Source: Betaproteobacteria bacterium
Lineage (GTDB): Bacteria > Pseudomonadota > Gammaproteobacteria > Burkholderiales > Burkholderiaceae_C
Length of the DNA stretch: 64,000 nucleotides
Reading direction: 5' to 3'
NCBI GenBank assembly: GCA_947453725.1
Contig: CANGHH010000004.1
Span: forward strand, 124,001-188,000
In this document: positions 30,529 through 46,909 of the stretch, in pieces
How the letters are laid out: every line of letters starts with the position of its first letter
Position numbering within the stretch: position 1 is the first letter of the stretch
The notes under the pieces: model-generated
The model's input: the letters and a program-made list of their open reading frames with translations, nothing else
Told to the model about the DNA's origin: nothing
Database searches by the model: none
Translations under genes and position numbers: made by a program

Positions 30529-31077
30529 TCAGCCGCGCAGCGACATGCGGGCCAGCAGGCCGTCGCGGTCGATGAAGGCATGTTTCAGCGCCATCAGCAC
30601 ATGGCCGGCGATCAGCGCCGCCAGCAGCCAGGCCGTCAGCTCGTGCACGGTGTTGAAGAACTTGTAGACGCCGGGCAGGTCCGGCCCCAGCGGCGCCAGC
30701 GCCAGGCCGAAGAACTTCACGCCGTGCTTGCTGAAGTTGGACCCGATGGCGCCCGACGCGGGCAGCACCAGCATCGCCGCGTACAGCGCGCGGTGGCCCC
30801 ACTGCGCTGCCGCGCGCTGCGCGCCGGACATCGAAACGGGCCAGGTCGGCGGCCGGTGGCCCAGCCGCCACAGCAGGCGCAGCACGATCAGCAGGCCCAG
30901 CACCAGGCCCAGCGACTTGTGCAGGTTGATCACTGACGCCCGGCCTGGCGTGCCTTTCGGGGCCAGATCGTCGAGCAGCACGCCGAAGACGATCTGCGCG
31001 GCCAGCGCCAGGCCGATCAGCGCATGCAGGTAGCGGGCGACACGGTCGTAGCGGTTGTTGTAGAGGCTGAAGTTCAT
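30529..31077 (-). CDS. Cytochrome b561
   Basis: 182-residue four-helix integral membrane cytochrome with heme-ligand His in RYLHALIGLALA, INLHKSLGLVLGLLIVLRL, WGHRALYAAMLV and NTVHELTAWLLAALIAGHV. It exchanges electrons between periplasmic carriers and quinone. Its ATG overlaps the TonB-receptor stop (TGATG), so translation is coupled. Confidence 0.9.
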   Translation of the reverse strand: MNFSLYNNRYDRVARYLHALIGLALAAQIVFGVLLDDLAPKGTPGRASVINLHKSLGLVLGLLIVLRLLWRLGHRPPTWPVSMSGAQRAAAQWGHRALYAAMLVLPASGAIGSNFSKHGVKFFGLALAPLGPDLPGVYKFFNTVHELTAWLLAALIAGHVLMALKHAFIDRDGLLARMSLRG

Positions 31078-33248
31078 CAGAAGCTCGCGGTGACGGAGAA
31101 GCTGGCCAGCGCGCTGCGGCCGGGGGCCGGCTCGAAGAAGCGGCTGTTGCCTTCGTTGACGATGACCGAACCCGTGTAACGACGGTTGAACAGGTTGTCG
31201 ACGCGCACGAAGGCGTTCAGCGCCAGCGGGCCGGCCTGCAGCAGGTAGCCCAGATTCGCCGACGCCACCGCATGGGCCGCGGCCGCGTCGCTGTTGACAT
31301 CGTTGACATAGACCTTGCTCAGCGTGCGCGCTTCCAGACCGCCACGCCAGCCGCTGCCCGGCGCCCAGGCCAGGGCCGCGGTGCCGGCACTGCGCGCGAT
31401 GCCCGGGATGCGGCTGCTGGCCGCCACCATCACATTGGCGATGCTGCAGGGCGTGACGGTGCAGGTGGTGAAGGCATCGCGGTATCGGGCGTCGAGCAAG
31501 GTGTACGCAGCCTGCAGCTGCAGGTCGCCGAACCAGCGCTGCGACCAGGCCAGCTCCAGCCCCTGACGCTGCGTGGCGCCGGCATTCTGGAAGGTGGCGC
31601 GGCCGCCGCTGTTGGTCTGGGTGACGATCTCGCTGCGGGTGCCGGTCTGGAAGACCGCCACCGTCCACGCGCCCAGGCCGGCAGGCCTGGCCTTGACGCC
31701 GAATTCGAGGCTGTCGCTGCGGGCCGGCTGCAGGCCGAAGTTCAGGCCTGTGCCGCCGCCGCTGCGATAGGCCAGCTCGTTCAGCGTTGGGGTCTCGAAG
31801 CCGCGACCGGCGGTGGCGTAGACGTGCAGCGCGTCGCTGGCTGCAAACATCACACCCAAGGCCGGCAGCGTTGCGCCGTAGCGCGCGCCGCCGCTGTCGT
31901 CGGGGTTGCTGCCGACGACGTAGGCGTCGCTGGACTTGAAGCGCACGCTGCTGCGGCGCAGGCCGGTGTTGAGCGTCCACTGCGGCGCCAGCTGCCAGCT
32001 GGCCTGCAGGTAGGGGTCGGCGCTCGTGACCTCGTTGGTTTCGTCGCGGCGCAGCGCGCCTTTCACGCCCAGCACGCTGCCGACGAAGTTCTGGTAGCCG
32101 CGGCGGTGCTCCTTCAGCGTGTCGTAGGCCAGGCCGCCGACGAGCTTGACCGGCACGCTGCCGACGGGGCCGTCGGCCGTCCAGCGCACGTCGGCGCCGC
32201 GGTAATCGCGGCCCAGCGAGATCACGCCGCCCGGGTGCAGCGCATTGGCCTGCGTGGCCACCGCGATGCTCTGGTATTGCTCGGTGCTGCGGTGGCCGCC
32301 GTAGGCCAGCAGTTGCAGGCTGCCCCAGGCGCCGAAGCCGCGTTCGTAGACCGCACCGGCCTGCGACTGGCCGACGGTCTTGCGGGTGTCGAAAGTGACG
32401 GCCGACGGGTCGACGCCGCGCGGATTGGCCTCGGCCTGGGCGCGACTCAGGCCCAGCGGGTCCTGCGCACGCGGCAGCGACACGCTGTTGACGACCAGGG
32501 TCAGCTTGCTGGCCCCGTCAGGCTTGAGCGTGAACTTGGCATTGCCCAGCCAGCGCGTCGTGGCGCTGTGGTCGCGGTAGCCGTCGGTGCTGAAGCGGCT
32601 GGCGCCGGCGGTGTAGCCCACCGCGCCCAGACCGGTGCCGATGCGGCCGGCGGCCTGCGCGCTCAGACGCAGCAGGCCGTCGTTGCCGGTGGCGCTGCCC
32701 AGCGTCAGGCGCGGCTCGCCCTGGCCTTCTTCGGTGAAGACCTGGATCACGCCGCCCGAGGAATTGCCGTACAGCGCCGAATAGGGCCCGCGCAGCACCT
32801 CGATGCGGTCCACCGTGCCGAGGTCGACGTTGCCGATCTGGCCCTGGCCATCGGGCAGCGTGGCCGGTATGCCGTCGACATAGAGGCGCACGCCGCGGAT
32901 GCCGAAGGTCGAGCGCGCGCCGAAGCCGCGCACCGAGATCTGCACGTCCTGCGCGTAGTTCTGCCGGTCGCGGGCCAGCAGACCGGGCACGCCGCCGAGG
33001 CTTTCGGACAAGTTGATCTGGGCGCGGCCGGCGCGCACCTCGTCGCCGGCGATCCGGTCGACCGAAGCCGGCAGGTCGAAGGGGCGTGCTTCGGTCCGGG
33101 TGGCGGTGATGACGACCGCTTCGGCGGCGATGGCGGGGGCCGTCGGCGTCGGCGCGGCGGTCTGGGCCTGCAGCGGGGCGTGGGCGGCGGCACCCAGGCC
33201 CGCCGCCAGCGCGCACCGGGCGCCGCGGCGCAGGGAACTCAAGGGCAT
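31077..33248 (-). CDS. TonB-dependent outer-membrane receptor 1
   Basis: 723 residues: signal peptide ending near PLQAQ, TonB-box-like EAVVITATRTE, plug domain with VRGFGARSTFGIRGVRLYVDG and RIEVLRGPYSALYGNSSGG, and a 22-strand barrel ending in aromatic ASFSVTASF. The start MPLSSLRRG is at 33248. Inside the sigma-54-controlled operon of cytochromes and the binding protein, so it may import a cofactor (PQQ, lanthanide or copper complex) for the periplasmic quinoprotein. The ligand is not deducible. Confidence 0.92.
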   Translation of the reverse strand: MPLSSLRRGARCALAAGLGAAAHAPLQAQTAAPTPTAPAIAAEAVVITATRTEARPFDLPASVDRIAGDEVRAGRAQINLSESLGGVPGLLARDRQNYAQDVQISVRGFGARSTFGIRGVRLYVDGIPATLPDGQGQIGNVDLGTVDRIEVLRGPYSALYGNSSGGVIQVFTEEGQGEPRLTLGSATGNDGLLRLSAQAAGRIGTGLGAVGYTAGASRFSTDGYRDHSATTRWLGNAKFTLKPDGASKLTLVVNSVSLPRAQDPLGLSRAQAEANPRGVDPSAVTFDTRKTVGQSQAGAVYERGFGAWGSLQLLAYGGHRSTEQYQSIAVATQANALHPGGVISLGRDYRGADVRWTADGPVGSVPVKLVGGLAYDTLKEHRRGYQNFVGSVLGVKGALRRDETNEVTSADPYLQASWQLAPQWTLNTGLRRSSVRFKSSDAYVVGSNPDDSGGARYGATLPALGVMFAASDALHVYATAGRGFETPTLNELAYRSGGGTGLNFGLQPARSDSLEFGVKARPAGLGAWTVAVFQTGTRSEIVTQTNSGGRATFQNAGATQRQGLELAWSQRWFGDLQLQAAYTLLDARYRDAFTTCTVTPCSIANVMVAASSRIPGIARSAGTAALAWAPGSGWRGGLEARTLSKVYVNDVNSDAAAAHAVASANLGYLLQAGPLALNAFVRVDNLFNRRYTGSVIVNEGNSRFFEPAPGRSALASFSVTASF

Positions 33249-33330
33249 GTCGTCTCCACGATCGTTGTTCGGCTGGCCGGGCAGCGGGTCCGTCGACACC
33301 CGAACCCGGCTCTGGGCCCGCGCCCGCAGT

Positions 33331-34234: not shown

Positions 34235-34717
34235 TCACAGCGCCTTGTCACGGCGGCTTTCGAGGTAGGCCTTGATGGCCCACATCGCTTCCTGGTTGAA
34301 GATGCCTTCGAAGGGCGGCATGTAGACCGCGCCATTGCGCGTGCGGCCGTGGCGCACGGTGGTCAGGAAGTACTCATCGTTTTCCTTGACGCAGGCCGCC
34401 TTGCGGGCGGCGTCTTTCAGCGAGGCGCAGTCGTTGTCGAGCTTGCGCAGGTCGGGTGCGATGCCGCCCGAGACGGCTTCCAGGCCGTGGCAGCGCGCGC
34501 AGTTCTGGTTGTAGGCCGAGGTGCCGACCTTCAGCGCCGCCTCGTTGCCGCGGTAGGGGTTCTCCCCGCGCCAGGCTTCGCCCAGCACGGGCAGGCTGCT
34601 GGTGTCCACAGCCTGTGGGGTGACATCGCCATGCGACCAGGCCGGCGTGGCCGAGCCGATCAGGAGCGCCAGCACAGCCAGGACGGCGGCGGCGGGTGGG
34701 ACGGTGTGGCGGGGCAT
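34235..34717 (-). CDS. pedF: Cytochrome c-550 PedF-like
   Basis: 160-residue secreted cytochrome: signal peptide ending PAWS, then HGDVTPQAVDTSSLP, heme site C73-A-R-C76-H77 and axial Met in VYMPPFEG. The YRGNEAALKVGTSAYNQNCARCHGLEAVSGGIAPDL stretch, broken here for length at about residues 55-90, is the PedF signature. PedF accepts electrons from PQQ ethanol/2-phenylethanol dehydrogenases. First gene of the operon, 54 nt from the sigma-54 site. Confidence 0.88.
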   Translation of the reverse strand: MPRHTVPPAAAVLAVLALLIGSATPAWSHGDVTPQAVDTSSLPVLGEAWRGENPYRGNEAALKVGTSAYNQNCARCHGLEAVSGGIAPDLRKLDNDCASLKDAARKAACVKENDEYFLTTVRHGRTRNGAVYMPPFEGIFNQEAMWAIKAYLESRRDKAL

Positions 34718-34952: not shown

Positions 34953-37154
34953 ATGACCAGCTACCGCCGCGAAGGGACCCCGCCATCAGCCCCGCCCTCT
35001 GCGGGGCTGGCGGGCGATGCGGCTGCACAGACCGCGCCGCAGTTGCGCTCGGAAGTCATCCGCCAGTCGCACCGGCGCAGCGCCGCCCTGGGACTGTCGC
35101 GCGGCGAACGACTGGAATTCGGGCCGATGATGCGCAGCGACCTGATCGTGGCGCGCGAGCGCAACCAGCGGCTGTGCGTGCATGCCGCGCCGGTGATGCA
35201 GGTGCTCTTCGAGCAGATCGCGGGCACCGAGAGCATGATCGTGCTGACCGACTCGCACGGCACCATCCTGCACTCGGTCGGCGACGACGATTTCCTGGCC
35301 CGCGCCACCAAGGTCGCCCTGGCGCCCGGCGAGAACTGGGCCGAGCATGCCAAGGGCACCAACGCCATCGGCACCGCGCTGTTCGAGGAAAAGCCGACCC
35401 TCGTGCACGCCAACGAACACTACATCCACGCCAACAGTTTCCTGACCTGTTCGGCGGTGCCCATCTTCGACCCGCGCGGCCAGGTGCTGGGGGTGCTGGA
35501 CGTGACCGGCGACCACCGCGCCTACCACCAGCACACCATGGGGCTGGTCCGAATGTCGGCGCGGATGATCGAGAACCACTGGCTCAGCGACGACTACAAC
35601 CAGCACCTGCGGCTGCATTTCCACAGCCGGCCCGAATTCATCGGTACGCTGCTGGAAGGCATCATCGCGGTGGCGCCCGACGGCAAGATACTGGGCGGCA
35701 ACCGCAGCGCCATGGACCAGTTGGGCCTGAGCGGCAGCGCGCTGCGTGCGCAAACCCTGGCCGGCCTGTTCGGCACCAGCACGGCCGCGCTGCACGACCA
35801 CTTCCGCACGCCGCTGGCCGCGCCGATGCCGCTGAGGCTGCCGACCGGCCAGTACTTCTGCGTCAGCGCCCGGCTCGACTGGCTTGCGCAGCCGATGGTG
35901 TCGCACGTGGCACGCAGCGAGGCCGCCGCCAGCCGGCTGACGGCGGCCGCCGAGCCCGCGTCGGCCCTGGCGCTGCCGTCGCCCCCAGACGACCCCGTCT
36001 GCGCGGCTGTGGCGCCCCCGGGCACGGGCCTCCAGTACCTGTGCACGGGCGACCCGCAGATCGAACTGGTGGCGCAGAAGCTGCGTCGCGTCATCGACCG
36101 CGACATCCCGCTGCTGATCCTGGGCGAAACCGGCACCGGCAAGGAACTGGTGGCGCGCGCCGTGCACCAGGATTCGGCGCGCGCGCGCCAGCCTTTCGTG
36201 GCCGTGAATTGCGCTTCGATCCCCGAATCGCTGATCGAGGCCGAGCTCTTCGGCTACGAGGACGGCGCCTTCACGGGCGCGCGGCGCAAGGGCGCGCCGG
36301 GGCGCATCGTGCAGGCCAACGGCGGCACGCTGTTCCTGGACGAGATCGGCGACATGCCGCAAGCCCTGCAGGCGCGTTTGCTGCGCGTGCTGCAGGAGCG
36401 CAGCGTGACGCCGCTGGGCAGCGCCAAGACCATCACGGTGGATATCGCGGTCATCGGCGCCACCCACCGCAACCTGCGCGAAATGATCAACCGGCATGAA
36501 TTCCGCGAAGACCTGTATTACCGTCTGAACGGCCTGGCGCTGCGCCTGCCGCCGCTGCGCGAACGCAGCGACCTCGAAGTGGTAGCGCGGCGTATCGTGC
36601 TGGCCCACCGGCCCACCGACCCGCCCCACATCAGCCCGCAGGTGATGGACCTGTTCCGCCGCTACAGCTGGCCGGGCAACATCCGCCAGCTGGCCAATGT
36701 GCTGCGCACCGCGGCGGTGATGTCGGCCGGCGAACGCAGCATCACCACCGCCCACCTGTCGGACGACTTTCTGGAAGAAGCGCGCAGCCCCGCCCAGGCG
36801 GCCAACGCACCAGCAGGCCCGCCGACCGGCGCTTCGGTGGCCGAAGCCGTGATGCCGGCGCCGCTGGCCGGCGCCAAACCCGCGAACCACCCCGGGCCAG
36901 CCGGCTGGGACCAGCACCCACCGGCGAACGACCACCACGGCGCCGGCGAGCCGGTCGAACGCGCCGCCCGCCATGCACTGCCGCCGGCCGAACCGCTGCC
37001 GACGCGCACGCTGGACCAGGCCGAGACCGATCTGATCCGCAGCACGCTGCAGGCGCTGGGCGGCAACATCTCGGCGGCGTCGAAGCAACTGGGCATCAGC
37101 CGCAACACCATCTACCGCAAGCTGCGCTGGAACACCGCCCCGGGGGCGCCCTGA
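34953..37154 (+). CDS. Sigma-54-dependent activator, AcoR-like (GAF-AAA-Fis)
   Basis: 733-residue enhancer-binding protein. An N-terminal GAF-type sensor (about 75-215, NAIGTALFEEKP region) is followed by a PAS-like segment, an AAA+ domain with Walker A GETGTGKE near residue 388, the sigma-54 loop GAFTGA near 437, Walker B LFLDEIGD, and a C-terminal Fis-type helix-turn-helix (NISAASKQLGISRNTIYRKL). It is AcoR-type, the class that regulates alcohol and acetoin catabolism. The start MTSYRREGT at 34953 faces the pedF promoter. It is the evident regulator of the island. Confidence 0.93.
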   Translation: MTSYRREGTPPSAPPSAGLAGDAAAQTAPQLRSEVIRQSHRRSAALGLSRGERLEFGPMMRSDLIVARERNQRLCVHAAPVMQVLFEQIAGTESMIVLTDSHGTILHSVGDDDFLARATKVALAPGENWAEHAKGTNAIGTALFEEKPTLVHANEHYIHANSFLTCSAVPIFDPRGQVLGVLDVTGDHRAYHQHTMGLVRMSARMIENHWLSDDYNQHLRLHFHSRPEFIGTLLEGIIAVAPDGKILGGNRSAMDQLGLSGSALRAQTLAGLFGTSTAALHDHFRTPLAAPMPLRLPTGQYFCVSARLDWLAQPMVSHVARSEAAASRLTAAAEPASALALPSPPDDPVCAAVAPPGTGLQYLCTGDPQIELVAQKLRRVIDRDIPLLILGETGTGKELVARAVHQDSARARQPFVAVNCASIPESLIEAELFGYEDGAFTGARRKGAPGRIVQANGGTLFLDEIGDMPQALQARLLRVLQERSVTPLGSAKTITVDIAVIGATHRNLREMINRHEFREDLYYRLNGLALRLPPLRERSDLEVVARRIVLAHRPTDPPHISPQVMDLFRRYSWPGNIRQLANVLRTAAVMSAGERSITTAHLSDDFLEEARSPAQAANAPAGPPTGASVAEAVMPAPLAGAKPANHPGPAGWDQHPPANDHHGAGEPVERAARHALPPAEPLPTRTLDQAETDLIRSTLQALGGNISAASKQLGISRNTIYRKLRWNTAPGAP

Positions 37155-37167
37155 AGGCGCCACGCGT

Positions 37168-38151
37168 TCAGCGGAAGATCGTCGGTTCCAGGGCCAGCCA
37201 CAGGTGCTGAACGTTCAGCGGATGGCGCAGCGCGTAGCCCGGCAAGGGCTGCCAGGCGGGCAGGTCCAGGGGCGAGGCTCCCCACAAGTCGCCGCGCGCC
37301 AGGGCCGCTTCGGTGGCGGCCTGCAAGGCCTGCAGGTAATCGATGTGGGCGTCGATGTCGCGGGCATGGCCGAAGCCGCCTTGCTCGCCCAGCAGCGGCG
37401 AGCCGGCCGCCCAGTCGCGCAGTGCGCGCCAGCTGGCGAGCAGCAAGTCCGCCCGACTGCCGCGCAGCTCGGGCACGTCGCCGACCCACAGCAGGCCTTG
37501 CGCCAGCACGAGGGGGTCGGCGCCCCGCAGGCGCAGCACCAGCGTGCGTTCAGGGACGCTGCGCGGCAAGGCCAGCCAGTCGAAAGGCCCGAGGCGGCCC
37601 GTGGTCTGGCCCTCGCGACCGACCGGTCGCGTCGGTGCGCGGATGGCCGCGGGCTGCAGGCTCGCGCCGGCCGCACCCAGCTGGTCCTTCAAGCGCGCCT
37701 GACAGACCCCGCAACGGGCCTGCATCGCCCGCGCCACATCGGGCAGGGCCCACAGCCGGGCGCCGGGAAAGGCCCCGTTGCCCATCGCCAGTTCGGGCGC
37801 AGCGCGGGTGTTGACGATGTCGGTGACGCTGCGGTGCAGGGTCCACCGCACGGCACAGGCCAAGGCTGCGCCGAAGGCCGGCGTGGGCCCGCTGCCGACC
37901 AGCCACAGCCGCGCGCCGTCGCCCACCAGCAGCAGCTGCACCGTGCGCCCGGCGTTGGCTGCGTCGGGCTCGCCGCGCTCCGCAGCCACCCACCAGCGCT
38001 GCCGGCCCAGCGGCTGCAAGGCCGGCAAGGGCCCCGCCTCCGCCCGCTGCGCACAGGCGGTGGCGGCCTGTGCGGGGTGCAACCCGCACAGCAGGCTCCA
38101 CAAGGCGGCGAAACAGGCCCCGTGGAATCCCGTGGGCCTGTGCCGCTGCAC
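37168..38151 (-). CDS. Degenerate metallo-beta-lactamase-fold protein of the quinoprotein relay type
   Basis: 327-residue secreted protein from GTG at 38151 (an ATG at 38253 would add 34 residues); signal sequence ends near PAQAA. The body aligns with the SoxH-related quinoprotein-relay hydrolases: NTRAAPELAMGNGAF occupies the place of NTHxHPDHxxGNAAF, and the C-terminus DIDAHIDYLQALQAA...LPGYALRHPLNVQHLW is typical. All four ligands of the HxHxDH motif are replaced (R116, A118, E120, L121), and no PxHG motif is visible. It should not bind zinc in the normal way. Convergent with the activator gene; divergent from the ExbB-like operon. Confidence 0.78.
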   Translation of the reverse strand: MQRHRPTGFHGACFAALWSLLCGLHPAQAATACAQRAEAGPLPALQPLGRQRWWVAAERGEPDAANAGRTVQLLLVGDGARLWLVGSGPTPAFGAALACAVRWTLHRSVTDIVNTRAAPELAMGNGAFPGARLWALPDVARAMQARCGVCQARLKDQLGAAGASLQPAAIRAPTRPVGREGQTTGRLGPFDWLALPRSVPERTLVLRLRGADPLVLAQGLLWVGDVPELRGSRADLLLASWRALRDWAAGSPLLGEQGGFGHARDIDAHIDYLQALQAATEAALARGDLWGASPLDLPAWQPLPGYALRHPLNVQHLWLALEPTIFR

Positions 38152-38326: not shown

Positions 38327-39052
38327 GTGAACCCTTCTTCCCGCTTCGCCCGACTCGCCGCCCCGCGCCGCCGCGCCCCGCAACCGGTGGCCCTGCCCGA
38401 ACCGCTGTGGCTGGAATGGCTGGCCCTCGGCGGGGTGCTGGCCTTCGCGACCTGGCTGCTCGGCGCGCGCGGCGTCTGGGGCCTGCTGCTGCGCTCGGAT
38501 CCGACCGGCATCACGCTGGTCATCATCGTGCTGTTCGGCGCATCCACGCTGTGGTGCGGCGCGCGGGCGCGGGTCCTCCATCGACAGCGCTCGGCGCTGG
38601 CCTTGCAGCAGCAGGCCAGCGCCGCGCCCGGCCCTGAAGGCGACCCCGACTGGTCGGCCGACTACTGTCGCGCGCTGGCCGGGCCGCAGGGAGACAGCGC
38701 GACGGCGCTCGACCTGCTGCTGGAACAGACCCACGGCCCGCATGTCACCGCCTGGTGGGTCAACGGCATCCAGCTGAAGCTGGGGCTGCTGGGCAAGGTC
38801 ATCGGCTTCTCGATCCTGGCGCTGAACATCGGCAGCCTGCAGAGCTTCGACCCGGCGCAGTCGCAGGACCTGCTGCGCAGCCTGACCACCGGCCTGGGCG
38901 TGGCGCTGCTGACGACGATGGTCGGCCTGGTCGGCAACATCCTGCTGGGCCTGCAGCTGACACGGCTGGACCGCTACGCCGACGCGCTGGTGGCCGACAT
39001 CCAGCGGCTGGGCCTGGCCCGGCAAGCCGCAGCGGCAGAGGGCCGCGCTTGA
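38327..39052 (+). CDS. MotA/TolQ/ExbB-family proton channel protein
   Basis: 241 residues from GTG 38327. Two N-terminal membrane helices (about 25-45 and 55-78), a cytosolic segment, and the conserved proton-channel pair GLLGKVIGFSILALNIGSL and TTGLGVALLTTMVGLVGNI. It matches ExbB/TolQ/MotA helices 3-4. With the next gene it would form a proton-driven motor in the inner membrane. First gene of a five-gene operon ending in a TonB receptor. Confidence 0.82.
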   Translation: MNPSSRFARLAAPRRRAPQPVALPEPLWLEWLALGGVLAFATWLLGARGVWGLLLRSDPTGITLVIIVLFGASTLWCGARARVLHRQRSALALQQQASAAPGPEGDPDWSADYCRALAGPQGDSATALDLLLEQTHGPHVTAWWVNGIQLKLGLLGKVIGFSILALNIGSLQSFDPAQSQDLLRSLTTGLGVALLTTMVGLVGNILLGLQLTRLDRYADALVADIQRLGLARQAAAAEGRA

Positions 39053-39054
39053 CG

Positions 39055-39660
39055 ATGCGCCGCCGAAGGCCGGGCCGCGAGGCCGAGGTCGACCCCTTCT
39101 ACGACATGTTGTTCAACATGCTGATCGCCTTCGTCTTCTGTTTCATCATCGCGCTGCTGGCGATGAACCCGAAGGCGCTGAAGGCCGGCGACATCCCGTC
39201 GAAGGCCGAGTACATCGTCAACGTCAGCTGGCCCGACCGCAACCCCAACGACATCGACACCTGGGTCCAGGACCCGGGCGGCAACCTGGTCTGGTTCCGT
39301 GCCCGCGAAGCCGGCTTGATGTATCTCGACCGCGACGACCGCGGCGACGCCAACGACGCCATCGTCATCAACGGCCAGCGCATCCAGAGCCCCTTCCGCC
39401 AGGAGGTGGTGACACTGCGCGGCATCGTGCCCGGCGAGTTCACGGTCAACGTGCAGTACTACCAGTCGCGCGACGGCCAGCCGGTGGAGGTGACGGTCTC
39501 GGTGATCAAGGTCAACCCCAAGGCCGAGGTCGTCTTCTACGGCCAATTGAAGCTGGCGCGCCAGGGCGACGAAGCCACCGCGGCGCGCTTCACGCTGCTG
39601 CCCGACGGCAGCGTGGTCAACGTCAACACCCTGCCCAAATCACTGGTCCAAAGACTATGA
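39055..39660 (+). CDS. ExbD/TolR-like single-helix protein with an unusual periplasmic domain
   Basis: 201 residues: a basic N-terminus (MRRRRPGREAE) and one helix with DPFYDMLFNMLIAFVF. The P-F-x-D pattern puts Asp17 where ExbD/TolR carry their proton-binding Asp (PFIDV). The periplasmic domain (about 45-201) has SWPDRNPNDIDTWVQDPGGN and looks like a beta-sandwich, not the usual ExbD/TolR domain. It starts 2 nt after the ExbB-like stop. The call rests on the helix pattern and gene order. Confidence 0.72.
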   Translation: MRRRRPGREAEVDPFYDMLFNMLIAFVFCFIIALLAMNPKALKAGDIPSKAEYIVNVSWPDRNPNDIDTWVQDPGGNLVWFRAREAGLMYLDRDDRGDANDAIVINGQRIQSPFRQEVVTLRGIVPGEFTVNVQYYQSRDGQPVEVTVSVIKVNPKAEVVFYGQLKLARQGDEATAARFTLLPDGSVVNVNTLPKSLVQRL

Positions 39661-40151
39661 CCCTGCCTGTCGTTCTGAGCTTTGCCGCGCTGGCCTTCAT
39701 CGCGCTGCTGGCGCTGCTGTGGTCGCGCTGGCCGGCGTGGCTGAAGGGCCTGCTGGTGGTCGGCGTGACGGCCTTCTATTTCTTCGCCAACGACGTGGTC
39801 CACAGCGTCTGGGGCTGGCCCAGCAGCGACGCCCTGCCCGCGCGCTTCGTGCTGCTGGCGGCGGTCATCGAAGAGCCCAGCAACAAGACGCCGGGCGCGC
39901 TATTCGTGTGGGTCAACGCGCTGGAAGACGGCAAGCCGGCCGCCCAGCCGCGGGCCTACAGACTGGCCTACGCGAAAGACCTGCACGCGCTGCTGAACGA
40001 GGGCCTGAAGAAGGTGCGCGAAGGGGTCAGCCAGTACGGCACCAGCGAGCCCAAGGTCGGCAAGGGCGGTATGAGCTGGCTGCGCCCGGGCAACGACGAA
40101 CAGGCCGTGAAGCTGCGTGACCTGCCGTCCCCGCAGCTACCCGAAAAATGA
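39657..40151 (+). CDS. Unknown membrane protein, two N-terminal helices
   Basis: 164 residues: two hydrophobic helices (about 3-22 and 30-48), then a soluble domain with FVLLAAVIEEPSNKTPGALFVWVNALEDG and a C-terminal tail rich in polar residues. I do not recognise it. It overlaps the ExbD-like gene by four bases (ATGA) and the following lipoprotein gene by four, so it is translated in coupling with both. A structural part of the putative transport complex is the simplest reading. Confidence 0.7.
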   Translation: MTLPVVLSFAALAFIALLALLWSRWPAWLKGLLVVGVTAFYFFANDVVHSVWGWPSSDALPARFVLLAAVIEEPSNKTPGALFVWVNALEDGKPAAQPRAYRLAYAKDLHALLNEGLKKVREGVSQYGTSEPKVGKGGMSWLRPGNDEQAVKLRDLPSPQLPEK

Positions 40152-40858
40152 AGCACCCTGCCCTGCTGGCGACCGCCTGTTTCCTGCTCGCCGGCTGCAC
40201 CGCAAAGCCACCAGCCGACGCGCTGTTCCCGCTGGAGGGCGGGCACCGCTGGACCTACCGCGTGACCACGCTGAGCGGCGACGACAGCATCGAGCGCGAG
40301 ACGCTGACGCTGCGCACCCTGGGCGCCGAGGCCCTGCCGCTGCTGGACACGAAGAGCGCCTGGCGCCGGCGCAGCGACAGCGGCATCGACTACTGGCTGC
40401 GCGCCGATGAGACCGGCATCTACCGCGTGGCCAGCAAGACCGACATCCAGGTCGAAGCGGTGCTCGACAAACCGCTGCGCTTCGTCTTGAAAGCCCCCTA
40501 TACCGTGGGCACGCAGTGGCAGGCCACGACCACCTCCTACCTGCTGATGCGGCGCAGCGAATTCCCGCGCGAGATCCGCCACAGCCACCCGAGCATCCCG
40601 ATGAACTACCAGATCGAGGCCGTGGACGGGCGCATCGACACACCGGCCGGCCCCTTCACGAACTGCCTGCGCGTGAAAGGCGTCGGCAGCGTGCGCGTCT
40701 ACGCCGACCCGGCCAGCGGCTGGCGCGACCTGCCGCTGACCAGCACCGAGTGGTACTGCAAAGGCGTCGGCCTGGTGAAGGTGCAGCGTGACGAGCCCGC
40801 GCAGTCGGCTTTCCTGACCGGCGGCTCGCGCACGCTGGAGCTGGAGTCCTGGGAATGA
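40148..40858 (+). CDS. Periplasmic lipoprotein of unknown function
   Basis: 236 residues with a lipobox LLAGC (Cys17) and a globular beta-rich domain: FPLEGGHRWTYRV, KAPYTVGTQWQATTTSY and NCLRVKGVGSVRVYADPASGW. The fold resembles the small beta-sandwich of DUF3108-type proteins, but I cannot assign it firmly. ATGA overlaps on both sides place it between the unknown membrane protein and the receptor. It may bind the imported ligand or anchor the complex. Confidence 0.7.
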   Translation: MKHPALLATACFLLAGCTAKPPADALFPLEGGHRWTYRVTTLSGDDSIERETLTLRTLGAEALPLLDTKSAWRRRSDSGIDYWLRADETGIYRVASKTDIQVEAVLDKPLRFVLKAPYTVGTQWQATTTSYLLMRRSEFPREIRHSHPSIPMNYQIEAVDGRIDTPAGPFTNCLRVKGVGSVRVYADPASGWRDLPLTSTEWYCKGVGLVKVQRDEPAQSAFLTGGSRTLELESWE

Positions 40859-43455
40859 AGCGGGCCGCGCCGGCTGGTTTCAGGGTGACCGCCACGGCTG
40901 CGGCCTGCGCGGCGTGGGCCACCTTGTTGGGCGCGGGGTCGGCGGCCGCGCAACAGGTGGCTGCCGTCGCCGTGCAGCGCATCGAGATCATCGGCACCAC
41001 GCCGCTGCACGGCCTGGGCAGCGCGGCCGGCCAGTTGCCGTCGAACGTCCAGACCGCCAACGCCGACGCGCTGGACCGCAGCCACGCGCTCGACCTGGCC
41101 GCCTACCTGAACCGCGCGCTGGGCAGCGTCAGCCTGGGCGATCTGCAAGGCAACGCCTACCAGCCCGACGTCAACTTCCGCGGCTACACCGCTTCGCCGC
41201 TCCTGGGCACGCCGCAGGGTTTGTCGGTTTACCTGGACGGCGTGCGCATGAACCAGCCATTCGGCGACGTGGTCAACTGGGATTTGATTCCCCGCGCGGC
41301 CATCGCGCAAGTCACGCTGATGCCCGGCAGCAACCCGCTGTTCGGCCTGAACACGCTGGGCGGCGCGCTGGCCGTGCAGACCAAGACCGGCCTCACCGAC
41401 CCCGGCACCACGGTGCAATTGCTGGCCGGCGCGCACCGGCGTGCGGGGGTGGAATTCGAGCACGGCTTCAGCCGCCTGGGCGGCGACAGCAGCCCCGGCG
41501 GGCTGAACGGCTACATCACTGGCAACCGCTTCCATGAACAGGGCTGGCGGGCGACCACGCCGTCCGACATCAGCCAGCTCTTCGGCACGCTGGGCTACAC
41601 CGCAGCGCGCAGCGCCGAACCCGGCGCCGGACCCAGCGCCGGCCGCAGCGAGTGGCGCCTCAGTGCCGCCGTGGCCGACAACCGCCTCACCGGCAGCGGC
41701 TTGCAGGAACAAGGCGCGTTGCAGCGCGACTGGGCCGGCGCCTACACCACGCCCGACACCACGCGCAACCGTTCGCTGCTGCTGGCCGCCTCGGCGCGGC
41801 ATGCGTTCGACAGCGGGCTGGCACTGGCCGTCAACGCGCACGCGCGGCGGCTGAACACCCGCACCCTCAACGGCGACCTCAACGAAGCCGCGCTGGACCA
41901 AGCCGTCTACCAACCCGGCGCCGCGGAACTTGCCGCCCTGGCCGTCGCCGGCTACACGGGCGTGCCGGTCAGCGGCGCCAGCGCCGCCAGCACACCCTTC
42001 CCGCAGTGGCGCTGCGTGGCCCATGTGCTGCTCAACGAAGAGCCGAACGAAAAGTGCACCGGGCTGATCAACCGCACGGCCACCGTGCAAAGCGACGGCG
42101 GCCTGACCATCGAGATGTCTGCCATGCCGCACTGGGCCGGCGTCGACCATCGCGCGGTGCTGGGCCTGGGCTACGACGCCAGCCGCGTGCAATTCACGCA
42201 GGGCACTCAGTTCGGGTTCATCAACCCTGACCGCTCGGTCACGGCCCCTGCCGGCAGCGGGCCCGGCGCCTTTGCCGACGGCACGCAGCATTCCGAGAAC
42301 GCCTACGACGCCCGTGTGGCGCTGACCAGCCGCGCACAAACCGCCAGCGCCTACGCCAGCGACACCTTGGCGCTCAACGCCCAAACGCTGCTGACGCTGG
42401 CCGGCCGCTACAACCGCAACAGCGTGCAGCTGCGCGACGGGATCACGCACGGCGGCGGCCCCGGCTCGCTGGACGGCAACCACCGTTTTGCCCGCTTCAA
42501 CCCGGCCGTCGGGGTCCTTTGGACAGCCAGCCCCGCGCTCAGCGCCTACGCCGGCGCCAACCAGGGCAGCCGCGCACCCACGGCGGTGGAACTGGGCTGC
42601 GCCGACCCGGCCAGCCCCTGCAAACTGCCGAATGCATTCGCCGGCGACCCACCCTTGCGGCAGGTGGTGACCACGACAGTGGAGGCCGGCCTGCGCGGCA
42701 GCGTCAAGACCGCAGCGCTGGGGGATGTGGCGTGGAACTTCGGCCTCTTTCGCGCCGTCAACCGCGACGACCTGCTCTTCGTTTCGGACAACGCCAGCGG
42801 CTACGGCTACTTCAAGAATTTCGGCCTGACGCGCCGCCAGGGCCTCGAAGCAGGCCTGACCGTGAAGCCCGGCGCGGCGTTCAGCGTGGGCGGCAACCTC
42901 ACGCTGCTGGACGCCACCTACCGCAGCCCCGAGGTGGTGGGCGGTGCCGGCAACAGCAGCAACGGTTCGGCGTTGGCCGGCTTTCCGGGCACCGACGGCA
43001 CCATCGCGATACGCCCCGGCAACCGCATACCGCTGCTGCCGCGCGGCCAGTTGAAACTGTTCGCCGGGTGGGAAGTGAACGCGCAGTGGCAACTGAGCGG
43101 CGACCTCAACGCCGCCACCGGCGCACCCGCGCGCGGCAATGAAAACGGCCAGCACCAGCCTGACGGCGTGAACTACACCGGGTCCGGCCGCAGCGCGGGC
43201 TACGCGGTGCTGAACGCGGGCGTGGAGTGGCAGCCCACGCCGCGCTGGCGGGTCTTCGCGCAGCTCAACAACTTGCTGGACGCGCGCTACAGCAGCGCTG
43301 CGCAGCTGGGGGCCAACGGCTTCGACGCACAGGGCCGCTACGTCGCCCGCCCGCTGCCACGCAACGCCAACGGCGACTACCCGCTGGTGCGCAGCACCTT
43401 CCTGGCACCGGGCGCGCCGCGCACCGGCTGGGTGGGCTTGCGCATCACGCTCTGA
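40855..43455 (+). CDS. TonB-dependent outer-membrane receptor 2
   Basis: 866 residues: signal peptide ending AAAQ, TonB-box-like VQRIEIIGTTPL, plug with NFRGYTASPLLGTPQGLSVYLDGVRMN and MPGSNPLFGLNTLGGA, barrel ending near TGWVGLRITL. Two Cys in WRCVAHVLLNEEPNEKCTG could form a loop disulfide. It is the last gene of the operon (ATGA overlap with the lipoprotein). Receptors of this length move large chelates. In this context a lanthanide, copper or PQQ-linked compound is plausible. Confidence 0.9.
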   Translation: MKRAAPAGFRVTATAAACAAWATLLGAGSAAAQQVAAVAVQRIEIIGTTPLHGLGSAAGQLPSNVQTANADALDRSHALDLAAYLNRALGSVSLGDLQGNAYQPDVNFRGYTASPLLGTPQGLSVYLDGVRMNQPFGDVVNWDLIPRAAIAQVTLMPGSNPLFGLNTLGGALAVQTKTGLTDPGTTVQLLAGAHRRAGVEFEHGFSRLGGDSSPGGLNGYITGNRFHEQGWRATTPSDISQLFGTLGYTAARSAEPGAGPSAGRSEWRLSAAVADNRLTGSGLQEQGALQRDWAGAYTTPDTTRNRSLLLAASARHAFDSGLALAVNAHARRLNTRTLNGDLNEAALDQAVYQPGAAELAALAVAGYTGVPVSGASAASTPFPQWRCVAHVLLNEEPNEKCTGLINRTATVQSDGGLTIEMSAMPHWAGVDHRAVLGLGYDASRVQFTQGTQFGFINPDRSVTAPAGSGPGAFADGTQHSENAYDARVALTSRAQTASAYASDTLALNAQTLLTLAGRYNRNSVQLRDGITHGGGPGSLDGNHRFARFNPAVGVLWTASPALSAYAGANQGSRAPTAVELGCADPASPCKLPNAFAGDPPLRQVVTTTVEAGLRGSVKTAALGDVAWNFGLFRAVNRDDLLFVSDNASGYGYFKNFGLTRRQGLEAGLTVKPGAAFSVGGNLTLLDATYRSPEVVGGAGNSSNGSALAGFPGTDGTIAIRPGNRIPLLPRGQLKLFAGWEVNAQWQLSGDLNAATGAPARGNENGQHQPDGVNYTGSGRSAGYAVLNAGVEWQPTPRWRVFAQLNNLLDARYSSAAQLGANGFDAQGRYVARPLPRNANGDYPLVRSTFLAPGAPRTGWVGLRITL

Positions 43456-43860: not shown

Positions 43861-45651
43861 TCAGTTGGCCTTGGCGACCTTGACGTCGCCGCCGGCCTTG
43901 GGAATCTTGAAGACCCAGACCATGCCGCCCTGCTCCAGGAAGTTGACCTTGGTCGCCACGTCGCCGCCCCACAGCGGGACCGCGCCGCCCCAGCCGGACA
44001 CGACGCTGACGTACTGCTCGCCGTTCTGCATCCAGGTGGTCGGTGGTGCCACGACGCCCGAGCCGGTCTGGAATTCCCAGACGACCTTGCCGGTCTTGGC
44101 GTCGGCGGCCTTCAGGTAGCCCTCGGGCGTGCCCCAGAACACCAGGTTGCCGGCGGTGGTCAGCACGCCGCCCCACAGCGGCGCGTTGTTCTTGACTTCC
44201 CAGACGATCTTGCCGGTCTTCGGGTCGATCGCGCGCATCGCGCCGATGTAGTCGTTGTTGATGGTCTTGATCGTGAAGCCGGCGCCCATGTAGGCGGCGC
44301 CCTTCTTGTAGGTGACCGGCTCGTTCCAGATCTCCATGCCCCACTCGTTGGCCGGCACGTAGAACAGCTTGGTGTCGGGGCTGTAGGCCATCGGCATCTG
44401 GTTCTTGCCGCCGAGGAAGGACGGTGCGGCGAAGACCACATTGCCCTTCTTGCCGTCGGCGCCCGCGGTCGGGTTGCCCGGGCGGTTTTCCGGCACGAAG
44501 TTCGGCCGGCCGGTCTTCAGGTCGATGCCGGTGGCCCAGGTCACCTTCTTGACGAAGGGGAAGGCGTTTTCGAGCTTGCCGGTGGTCGCGTCGAGCACGT
44601 AGAAGAAGCCGTTGCGGTCGGCCTTGCCGCCCAGGCGCTTGCCGCCGTCGTCATAGGTCACGAATTCATTGACGCCGTCGAAGTCCCAGCCGTCGTTCGG
44701 CGTGCCCTGGTAGTGCCACTTGATCTGGCCGGTCTTCACGTCGATGGCCACGGTGGCGCAGCTGAACAGGTTGTCGCCCTGGCGCAGGTGGCTGTTCCAC
44801 GGCGCCGGGTTGCCGGTGCCGAAATAGGCCAGGCCGGTCTTGGCGTCGTAGGTGCCGCCCAGCCAGGTGGCCGCGCCGCCGGTCTTCCAGAGGTCACCCG
44901 GCCAGCTCTTGTTGGTGGTACCCGAAATACCGTTTTCCTTCTTGTTGCCGGCGGCGTCGTAGGTGTAGCCCATGTGGCCCTCGACCGTCGGACGGCTCCA
45001 GACCATCTTGCCGGTACGCGGGTCGCGCGCCTCGACGCGGCCGACGACGCCGAATTCGCCGCCCGACACGCCGGTCAGCAGCAAACCCTGGGCAATGATC
45101 GGCGCTGCGGTGGCGGAATAGCCGGCCGCGTATTCGTCGATCTTCTCTTTCCAGACGACGTCGCCGGTGTCGGCGTTCAGCGCCACCAGTTGCGCGTCGA
45201 GGGTGGCGAAGATCACCAGGTTGTCGTAGAGCGCCGCGCCGCGATTGACGACGTCGCAGCAGGGCATGATGCCTTCGGGCAGGCGGTGTTCGTACTTCCA
45301 CAGCTTCTTGCCGGTGGCCGCGTCGAGCGCAAAGATGCGCGAATACGAGGCCGTGACGAACATCTTGCCGTTGTGCACCAGCGGCTGCGATTCCTGGCCG
45401 CGCTGCTTCTCGCCGCCGAAGCTGAAGGCCCAGGCCGGCACCAGGCGGGCGACGTTGCCGGTGTTGACCTGCTTCAGCGCCGAGTAGCGCTGGCCCTGCG
45501 TGCCCAGGCCCCAGGACAGGACCTCGTTGCCGGTCTTGGCCGAGTCCTCGATCATCTTGTCGGTCACGGCATCGCCAGCGGCATGGGCGGCCGGCACGGC
45601 CATCGCGGCCAGGGCCAGGGTGGTCAGCAGAGTCAGAAGCTTCGGTTGCAT
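43861..45651 (-). CDS. PQQ-dependent alcohol dehydrogenase, lanthanide-type signature
   Basis: 596-residue periplasmic quinoprotein with eight W-type propeller blades. Signal peptide ends at AAHA; the vicinal disulfide is C131-C132 (MPCCDVV). Metal/PQQ ligands follow the XoxF/ExaF pattern: E199 (SGGEF), N281 (GNPAPWN), catalytic D323, and D325 in GWDFDGVNE. The second Asp is the lanthanide mark; Ca enzymes have Ala or Ser there. GAGGAG precedes the ATG at 45651. Oxidises primary alcohols; which one is unknown. Confidence 0.92.
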
Positions 45652-45928: not shown

Positions 45929-46909
45929 TCAGGGCCGGCGGGCCAGCGCCGCCTGTTCATAACGCGGATAGAGATGGGCCACGTTGCGCGTGTATTCGGT
46001 ATCGAAAGCGGCCCAGGCCCGGTACCCGGCCGGCACCGGCAGGCGCAGGACCTCGTTCATCTCGAGACCGCGTGCGGCGGCGTCGCTGAAGGTGGCGTCC
46101 AGCCAGGCCAGGTAGCGGGCCGTGCCACTGAGGGCCGCCGCAACCGCGTCGGCGTCGGTGGCAACCGGCCCGTGGCTGGGCACCAGCAGGCTGGCGTTCA
46201 GGCCTTGCAGGTCACGCAGGCTGGCCTGCCAGGCCGGCAATTGCGCGTGGGGCGTGGTCGGCACGCGCTGCGCGAAGACCAGGCCGCCGGCAAAGACGAT
46301 GCCGCTGCGGCGGTCGATCAGCACGGTGTCGCTGGTGGTGTGGCCTTGCAGTTCGCGCAGTTCGATCTCGCGGCTGCCGATGCGCTGCACGCCGGGCTGC
46401 AGGTCGGTGGACGGCGGCAGCAGCTCGCTGCCCCGCATCCAGTCGCCACACAGGCGGTAGAGGTTGTCCTCGTAGGCCTTGCCCTCGCGCTGGATGCCGG
46501 CGCGCGTGGCCGGCGTGGCCGCCCGCGGCACGTCGGCGAAGGCCTGGTTGCCGAAGACGTAGTCGGGGTGCAGATTGAAGTTGAAGACCTGGACGACGGG
46601 CTCGGCCGTCGTGCGCCCGATCAGCGCGCGCAGCTGCTCGCCGTAGCGCTTCGACGGTCCGCTGTTGACGACGAGTACGCCGGCCCCGGTGACGATGAAG
46701 CCGGTGTTGATGATGTTGCAGCCGTTGGCGATGCTGAAGTCGGCGTTGGCCCCTTCGACCACGTAGACGCCCGGCGCCAGCAACCGAGCCTGCAGGCCGT
46801 AATCGAAAGTCGCCGCGTCGACCCGCGGCGCAGCGGCCGCAGCCGGGCCGGCCCAGGCGGCCGCCCACAGGCACGCGGCGGCGACCGCGGCCGGCCAGCC
46901 GCGCCTCAA
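45929..46909 (-). CDS. Quinoprotein relay metallohydrolase, altered zinc site
   Basis: 326 residues, secreted (signal ending PAAAAA). Metallo-beta-lactamase fold: VYVVEGANADFSIANGCNIINTGFIVTGAGVLVVNSG, split here at residues 49-84, then NFNLHPDYVFGNQAF at the HxHxDH place, GHTTSDTVLID, and VPSHGPV. Two ligands are changed (N112 for His, Y117 for His) and FAGGLVF has Gly where Asp is usual; H114, D116 and the later His residues remain. Four-base overlap with the SoxYZ-like gene. Confidence 0.82.
   Translation of the reverse strand: MRRGWPAAVAAACLWAAAWAGPAAAAAPRVDAATFDYGLQARLLAPGVYVVEGANADFSIANGCNIINTGFIVTGAGVLVVNSGPSKRYGEQLRALIGRTTAEPVVQVFNFNLHPDYVFGNQAFADVPRAATPATRAGIQREGKAYEDNLYRLCGDWMRGSELLPPSTDLQPGVQRIGSREIELRELQGHTTSDTVLIDRRSGIVFAGGLVFAQRVPTTPHAQLPAWQASLRDLQGLNASLLVPSHGPVATDADAVAAALSGTARYLAWLDATFSDAAARGLEMNEVLRLPVPAGYRAWAAFDTEYTRNVAHLYPRYEQAALARRP

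Follow-up and report, generated by a model that had tools for sequence, protein, structure and literature searches.

A putative ion-driven envelope motor operon found next to lanthanide-type alcohol dehydrogenases

The ion-driven motors named in the available parts of two publications (PMC9389320, PMC12505986) are MotAB, ExbBD, TolQR, AglRQS and GldLM, and one passage there speaks of generic ion transporters of unknown function. We analysed a 64,000-nucleotide stretch of a 4.4 Mb betaproteobacterial genome (C4:124001-188000; hereafter the window), in which positions 38327-43455 hold an operon of five genes, A to E, that would add a differently armed member to these envelope motors. As in MotAB, TolQR, GldLM and AglRQS, a channel gene (A) adjoins the gene for an arm protein with a single transmembrane (TM) helix (B). 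Like the Ton system (TonB-ExbB-ExbD), the locus has an ExbB/TolQ/MotA-family protein (A), an N-terminal TM helix with a PFxD Asp (B) and a receptor gene that follows in the window; unlike Ton, it has no TonB, a predicted DUF2135-like sandwich instead of the ExbD domain in B, the extra genes C and D, and a receptor that is optional among relatives. Many relatives also share the neighbourhood of the lut/pedA1A2BC clusters, namely a PQQ_ABC_bind ATP-binding cassette (ABC) transporter, beta-propeller proteins, PqqB, PedF and a lanthanide-type dehydrogenase dependent on pyrroloquinoline quinone (PQQ). Our tentative reading, which we place near but below an even chance, is that A-D form a dedicated ion-driven envelope motor serving lanthanide-dependent PQQ alcohol oxidation, most likely by supplying the metal of the dehydrogenase. 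The genes of the operon are:

38327..39052 (or from 38387), plus strand: gene A, MotA/TolQ/ExbB-family channel protein (PF01618, hhalign, hydropathy)
39055..39660, plus strand: gene B, one predicted TM helix and a periplasmic beta-sandwich (AlphaFold2, hhalign to YfaP, residue counts)
39657..40151, plus strand: gene C, two predicted TM helices and a small periplasmic domain like an oligonucleotide/oligosaccharide-binding (OB) fold (AlphaFold2)
40148..40858, plus strand: gene D, putative lipoprotein, DUF3108-like (LLAGC lipobox, DUF3108_like matches in members)
40855..43455, plus strand: gene E, TonB-dependent receptor (Pfam plug and barrel)

All five open frames are real and co-directional, and encode proteins of 241 (A; 221 from 38387), 201 (B, from 39055), 164 (C), 236 (D) and 866 (E) amino acids. 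Direct reading of the junctions revealed ATGA overlaps at 39657 (B-C), 40148 (C-D) and 40855 (D-E). A and B do not overlap, the stop codon TGA of A lying at 39050-39052 and the ATG of B at 39055; a TTG at 39049 is a possible alternative start of B. The start of A is ambiguous between GTG 38327 and GTG 38387, of which the codon model chose the latter. Relatives' loci were taken as the best 80 of at least 521 B relatives found in a contig scan; their genes were called by a simple codon-model script, which missed or mis-started some, and neighbour labels are uncurated, resting on blastp or hidden Markov model matches against a small set of reference proteins. The titles of these 80 name Burkholderiales genera, beta- or pseudomonadotal metagenome-assembled genomes (MAGs) and one MAG called Vitreoscilla. 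A-D were all called in 75 of the 80 loci, the exceptions (L065, L076, L078, L083, L101) being short contigs or missed genes. Since the order A-B-C(-D) recurs in relatives whose B is only about 34% identical, a conservation directly supported by these comparisons, the gene set is more than chance.

Judged from its sequence profile, gene A is a divergent MotA/TolQ/ExbB-family protein. Alone, the window protein is borderline for PF01618 (MotA_ExbB; 22.5-23.2 bits, cut-off 22.9); in a diverse alignment of A, all 31 members, the window protein included, matched this family at E<=0.01 (best 2.3e-11), which supports the assignment directly. In the region of the last two helices, the A profile also aligned with three ExbB/TolQ-type proteins of its own genome (hhalign E 2.5e-6). 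Hydropathy gave about four hydrophobic stretches, the number also present in MotA. A PDB sequence search with A returned nothing useful, the one chain being TMH4C4 (E 5.9e-5 over 57 residues). The operon was also considered as a Zorya defence system and this was rejected: ZorA reached only E 0.046 against A, and B, C and D had no match.

For B, the AlphaFold2 model (mean pLDDT 79) has a single helix, residues 14-37, and a beta sandwich. Neither Pfam nor NCBIfam gave a match for the window protein at E<=1, and PF02472 (ExbD) was not among the 24 families matched at this threshold by 42 B members. Unlike the arms of MotAB, TolQR, GldLM and AglRQS, neither the window protein nor these members matched an OmpA, ExbD or GldM family in Pfam; one of the 42 matched TonB_C (E 0.17), which we take as chance. 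PF09906 (DUF2135) appeared at E<=1 in 14 of the 42 (best 0.0039), the window protein not being among them. As DUF2135 was not found at E<=1e-8 when 56 class genomes were searched, YfaP was taken from E. coli K-12, and the B profile matched this protein with an hhalign E of 2.1e-5. We regard the periplasmic sandwich of B as distantly related to DUF2135, an arm type directly supported as a distant profile match. YfaP differs from B in its setting, the operon yfaA-T-S-Q-P, which has no motor gene. A PDB sequence search with B found no chain at E<=10.

In C, AlphaFold2 predicted two helices followed by b-b-b-a-b-b, the strand order of the OB fold (mean pLDDT 74). Foldseek gave weak matches for C, none at E<=0.001, the top ones being AB5 toxin B subunits, PriB and SSB, which we take to be OB folds; the only family match was DUF4131 (E 0.0087, below its cut-off). 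The window D matched only DUF3108_like (E 0.013, below its cut-off), and 24 of 27 D members matched it at E<=0.1 (best 3.2e-8). Asp follows the lipobox Cys of D in 12 of 79 rows with a recognised lipobox (85 rows in total).

An earlier note, made from the letters of this DNA, had described five genes with ATGA overlaps linking the last four, a MotA/ExbB character of the first, a periplasmic domain of B unlike that of ExbD/TolR, then a 164-residue membrane protein and a lipoprotein, and no TonB protein in the operon. All of these descriptions held in the analyses above, and none of A-E matched TonB_C. On the sequence side the two small genes did not fall into well-known families unrelated to transport, an outcome that the note had named as one that would speak against it.

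The evidence that links A-D to alcohol oxidation comes from the genomic surroundings. B has 8 kb or more of flanking sequence on either side in 42 relatives' loci (full-flank loci). In all 42, A-D were accompanied by at least one PQQ/ped marker, and this remained true when the weak markers, sigma-54 activator and solute-binding protein, were left out and only PQQ dehydrogenase, PedF, PqqB, PQQ_ABC_bind and SoxYZ were counted (blastp E 1e-8, 30% identity). Among the 42, a sigma-54 activator occurred in 28, a PQQ dehydrogenase with DxD in 27, PedF in 27 and a PedC-type permease in 20; some PQQ dehydrogenase homologue of more than 300 amino acids was found in 31. In these enzymes DxD is the mark of lanthanide use and DxS that of calcium use. 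The motif WD[YF]D was present in 45 of 49 neighbouring PQQ dehydrogenase rows longer than 400 amino acids (two loci counted twice), and the gene next to D was a same-strand PQQ dehydrogenase, 20-705 bases on, in 14 of 69 loci. The link between A-B-C-D and PQQ enzymes, mostly of the lanthanide type, is thus directly supported by gene neighbourhoods.

The same association was seen across genomes. Of the 369 genomes in the class sample, which we infer to be Gammaproteobacteria as GTDB defines them, 41 carried B. It was present in 6 of 250 of the order sample, in 9 of 41 when 40 near relatives and the own genome were taken, and in 17 of 398 of the phylum sample, ten of these coming from one family outside the class (f256, probably alphaproteobacterial). 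A PQQ dehydrogenase over cut-off was found in 26 of the 41 class genomes with B and in 34 of the 328 without (Fisher p 1.7e-13, uncorrected for kinship). It was found in all ten f256 genomes with B and in five of the six B genomes of the order sample, in all five on the same contig and within 24 kb. All nine genomes classed A-B-C-D had one, the class of G180 resting on positions, as the caller had missed A-C.

In the window, the rows that correspond to these markers are:

43861..45651, minus strand: PQQ-dependent alcohol dehydrogenase with WDFD motif, lanthanide type (TIGR03075 752 bits and motif)
35043..37154, plus strand: sigma-54 activator, which recurs beside the operon in relatives
34235..34717, minus strand: cytochrome c-550 PedF (TIGR04494 200.5 bits, cut-off 122)

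Among relatives, one order is frequent: activator, metallohydrolase (reversed), PqqB-like protein, PQQ_ABC_ATP, beta propeller, PQQ_ABC_bind, PedC-type permease, A-B-C-D, TctC-like protein, two-component genes, receptor and dehydrogenase. The PedC-type permease, the end of the PedA1A2BC-type transporter genes (named by NCBIfam in one locus, L017), directly precedes A in 24 of 73 loci. According to the available part of PMC6839425, Pseudomonas putida needs PedA1A2BC for lanthanide-dependent growth at nanomolar concentrations of the trivalent lanthanide ion (Ln3+). Between the activator and the dehydrogenase of the window there are no ABC transporter or two-component genes, and the remainder of the genome was not searched for them.

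In the proposed mechanism, A as a MotA/ExbB-type channel and B as a TM Asp helix with a DUF2135-like arm would form the stator unit, and C together with lipoprotein D would pass its movement on to a partner in the periplasm or the outer membrane. The likeliest job would be metal supply, either through a lanthanide-binding receptor, here perhaps E, or by handing on Ln3+ in the periplasm; a supply of PQQ seems less likely. We prefer the supply role because the operon often stands directly behind PedA1A2BC-type genes and travels with lanthanide-type enzymes. For some well-studied bacteria, the route of lanthanides across the outer membrane and on to dehydrogenases in the periplasm is an open question (PMC12997753 says so for P. 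putida), and a motor operon that travels with lanthanide-type dehydrogenases is a testable candidate for this crossing or delivery. It is present in named isolates too, among them Leptothrix discophora, Paucibacter and Ideonella strains. The operon may thus help to supply rare-earth metal to alcohol-oxidising enzymes or to fit it into them. A more specific version, a new motor class with a metal-binding DUF2135-like domain as its arm, strikes us as quite improbable; here ion flow through A-B would carry Ln3+, free or chelated, from the outer membrane via C and D to the dehydrogenase, and the whole would be a mechanically driven metallochaperone.

Several observations weigh against the supply motor. 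The choice of the best 80 biases the loci towards near relatives. In the motif DPFYDMLFN of B, residues P14, F15 and D17 align with PFID of ExbD-type proteins; the hhalign match between B and ExbD covers only the TM segment (24 columns, E 0.044) and is weak. A simple conserved proton Asp is also at odds with the 10 of 125 aligned B rows (near-copies included) in which Asp17 is replaced: it is present in 114, six rows have Val (the six loci that belong to a different class within the phylum), four have Ala (four class-sample loci) and one is cut before the site. Asp13 is kept in all nine replaced rows that show this position, the tenth having a late called start. Elsewhere position 13 is Glu in L164 and a gap in L194, and the deep-branching L023, L154 and L155 lack D13 and keep D17. 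Four of the 49 dehydrogenase rows lack WD[YF]D: two have WDFS and two are distant (38% and 33% identical) with other DxD forms. Of the 60 genomes that have a PQQ dehydrogenase over cut-off, 34 carry no B, and 15 of the 41 class genomes with B have no PQQ dehydrogenase over cut-off, so that A-B-C alone is not specific and the motor itself not exclusive to alcohol oxidation (two of the 15, G048 and G254, have strong matches below the threshold). Invariant acidic residues of B are also kept in genomes without the dehydrogenase, and 23 of the 42 full-flank loci have no receptor inside the stretch.

This evidence bears on several statements of the earlier note. Its Asp17 is numbered correctly from ATG 39055 and lies in an aligned PFxD; its identity with the ExbD/TolR proton Asp is weakened by the poor alignment and by the loss of the residue in two groups. 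The co-occurrence with PQQ dehydrogenases that the note had proposed as a check was found among the full-flank loci and in the class sample. Of the dedicated energised import or assembly machine for alcohol oxidation, the motor-type A and the tie of A-B-C-D to PQQ enzymes stand, and the exclusive dedication of the core and a fixed receptor do not.

The occurrence of A-B-C outside alcohol oxidation brings in another explanation, which we consider unlikely: the operon could be a general envelope module that in some lineages just happens to belong to the alcohol-oxidation regulon, its role being e.g. to sense stress or to maintain the cell wall or outer membrane. The surroundings of B were read in 32 of the 41 class genomes, the window included (all except G048, G082, G204, G240, G257, G330, G342, G356 and G390). 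A tree built from 42 B proteins had the A-B-C-D loci clustered, with 4 changes against 13.9 when shuffled, and did not show them as a single clade; A-B-C is the widespread core and A-B-C-D its alcohol-oxidation version. Consistent with a general role, an L,D-transpeptidase gene adjoins A-B-C in 12, a DUF302 lipoprotein gene in 11 and a kinase gene in 10 of 30 rows classed as D-less, six of which show an incomplete module. Some of the 15 genomes without the dehydrogenase carry D-less versions beside fumC/acnA, purB or infC, and A-B-C stands between fumC and acnA in G182 and G295 (L153, L164), two genomes of 1.0-1.1 Mb with no PQQ dehydrogenase over cut-off. A merely general role fits poorly with the tie of A-B-C-D to PQQ genes in every full-flank locus and every genome of that class, and the type with L,D-transpeptidase, DUF302 and VWA-FHA genes was likewise seen only with a PQQ dehydrogenase (14 of 14 genomes, three of which are also in the A-B-C-D set).

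D-less modules between an L,D-transpeptidase, a DUF302 lipoprotein and a VWA-FHA-like protein were found in L135, L137, L139, L144, L146, L148, L162, L163, L166, L167 and others, most of these stretches lying close to dnaE-accA-tilS. In G159, D stands beside A-B-C but is reversed. L189-L193 and L199 are A-B-C loci from another class, and a kinase and a NarL-type regulator adjoin in five of these six; the B proteins of all six have Val at position 17 and Asp at position 13. The regulators of the five loci are 39-48% identical to the best Burkholderiales ones; a homologous NarL-type regulator occurs in 15 of the 42 full-flank loci, 13 of these also with a receptor, and its recurrence speaks for the supply motor. 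The module was rejected as a methanotroph marker, as PF02461 was found in one of 43 genomes (the 41 class genomes with B and two of another class).

The receptor is at the centre of a narrower form of the supply reading, in which A-B-C would replace ExbB-ExbD-TonB and open the neighbouring receptor E, letting in PQQ or a chelate of Ln3+; we consider this rather unlikely. E matches the plug (6.8e-11) and barrel (1.1e-31) of TonB-dependent receptors, and its gene overlaps D. A receptor lies inside the stretch in 19 of the 42 full-flank loci, directly precedes A in L022, and 60-62% relatives stand behind D in L032 and L034. The available text of PMC7391723 reports that the receptor gene lutH of M. 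extorquens is repressed by lanthanum. Such an energiser is at odds with the full-flank loci that have no receptor and with the finding that, among 69 relatives' loci, the receptor immediately follows D in just one; the receptor as an operon partner, as first proposed in the note, is therefore not fixed. Moreover, C has no TonB_C match and differs from that domain in predicted strand order, and genes with PF01618, ExbD and TonB_C are present elsewhere in the same genome. Strict membership in the Ton system was rejected, with no TonB_C in the unit, no ExbD domain in B and a receptor that is not constant. E was also rejected as PqqU (NF041535, 64 of 1200 bits); its PDB matches, YncD and a PQQ transporter, cover residues 530-693 only.

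The supply reading has a second narrower form, a maturation machine in which the periplasmic motor would load metal into the PQQ dehydrogenase or assemble it, the acidic arm of B binding Ln3+ or Ca2+. Eight residues of B, D66, D68, R93, D94, D95, E117, R122 and E173, are unchanged in 125 of 125 aligned rows, and the invariant acidic ones among them would suit such binding; they also count in favour of the supply motor in general. Foldseek with B had no match at E<=0.001; the highest probability among the 50 matches listed belonged to 2lge, a calcium-bound Parabacteroides protein (probability 0.98, E 5.7e-3). Relatives of a VWA-FHA protein, one of which was checked with Pfam, follow A-B-C in 11 of the 30 D-less rows. 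In the part of PMC6277846 at hand, MEALZ_3990 and MEALZ_3991 of Methylomicrobium alcaliphilum, annotated as MotA/TolQ/ExbB and possible relatives of A, are repressed by lanthanum together with mxa genes. Against a maturation role, the acidic residues are kept where no PQQ dehydrogenase was found and the fold match is not significant; metal binding by B is putative, and we judge this role fairly improbable.

Returning to the motor operon as a whole, we found no description of A-B-C-D in the open-licence PubMed Central literature, which agrees with the note's suggestion that it is possibly undescribed. Word searches of the main text of lanthanide-transport papers gave no ExbB, ExbD or MotA in PMC7391723 and no ExbB in PMC6839425, and the main text of the lanthanome paper PMC12482762 has no ExbB, MotA or TolQ. 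In the portion of PMC10848612 available, ordinary exbB/exbD were lowered with neodymium in another methylotroph. According to PMC6839425, which refers to Keltjens 2014 and Wu 2015, a 'TonB-like transporter protein' is conserved among bacteria that have lanthanide-dependent methanol dehydrogenases; those two papers could overlap with the present finding.

A few further genes lie around the operon and its relatives. In relatives, PqqB-like proteins are encoded immediately ahead of the operon or of its transporter genes, at L016:2500-3474 and L017:3064-3828 (the latter with 132 of 245 bits). In the window, a divergent metallohydrolase-like gene at 37168-37989 (minus strand), which recurs beside the operon, has a weak SoxH_rel_PQQ_1 match (38 of 300 bits), and a protein encoded at 45929-46909 is above the cut-off of this family. 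A second TonB-dependent receptor, PqqU-like (806 bits against the equivalog cut-off of 1200), is encoded at 31077-33299 on the minus strand, where it adjoins a cytochrome b561-like gene and a gene for a beta-propeller protein.

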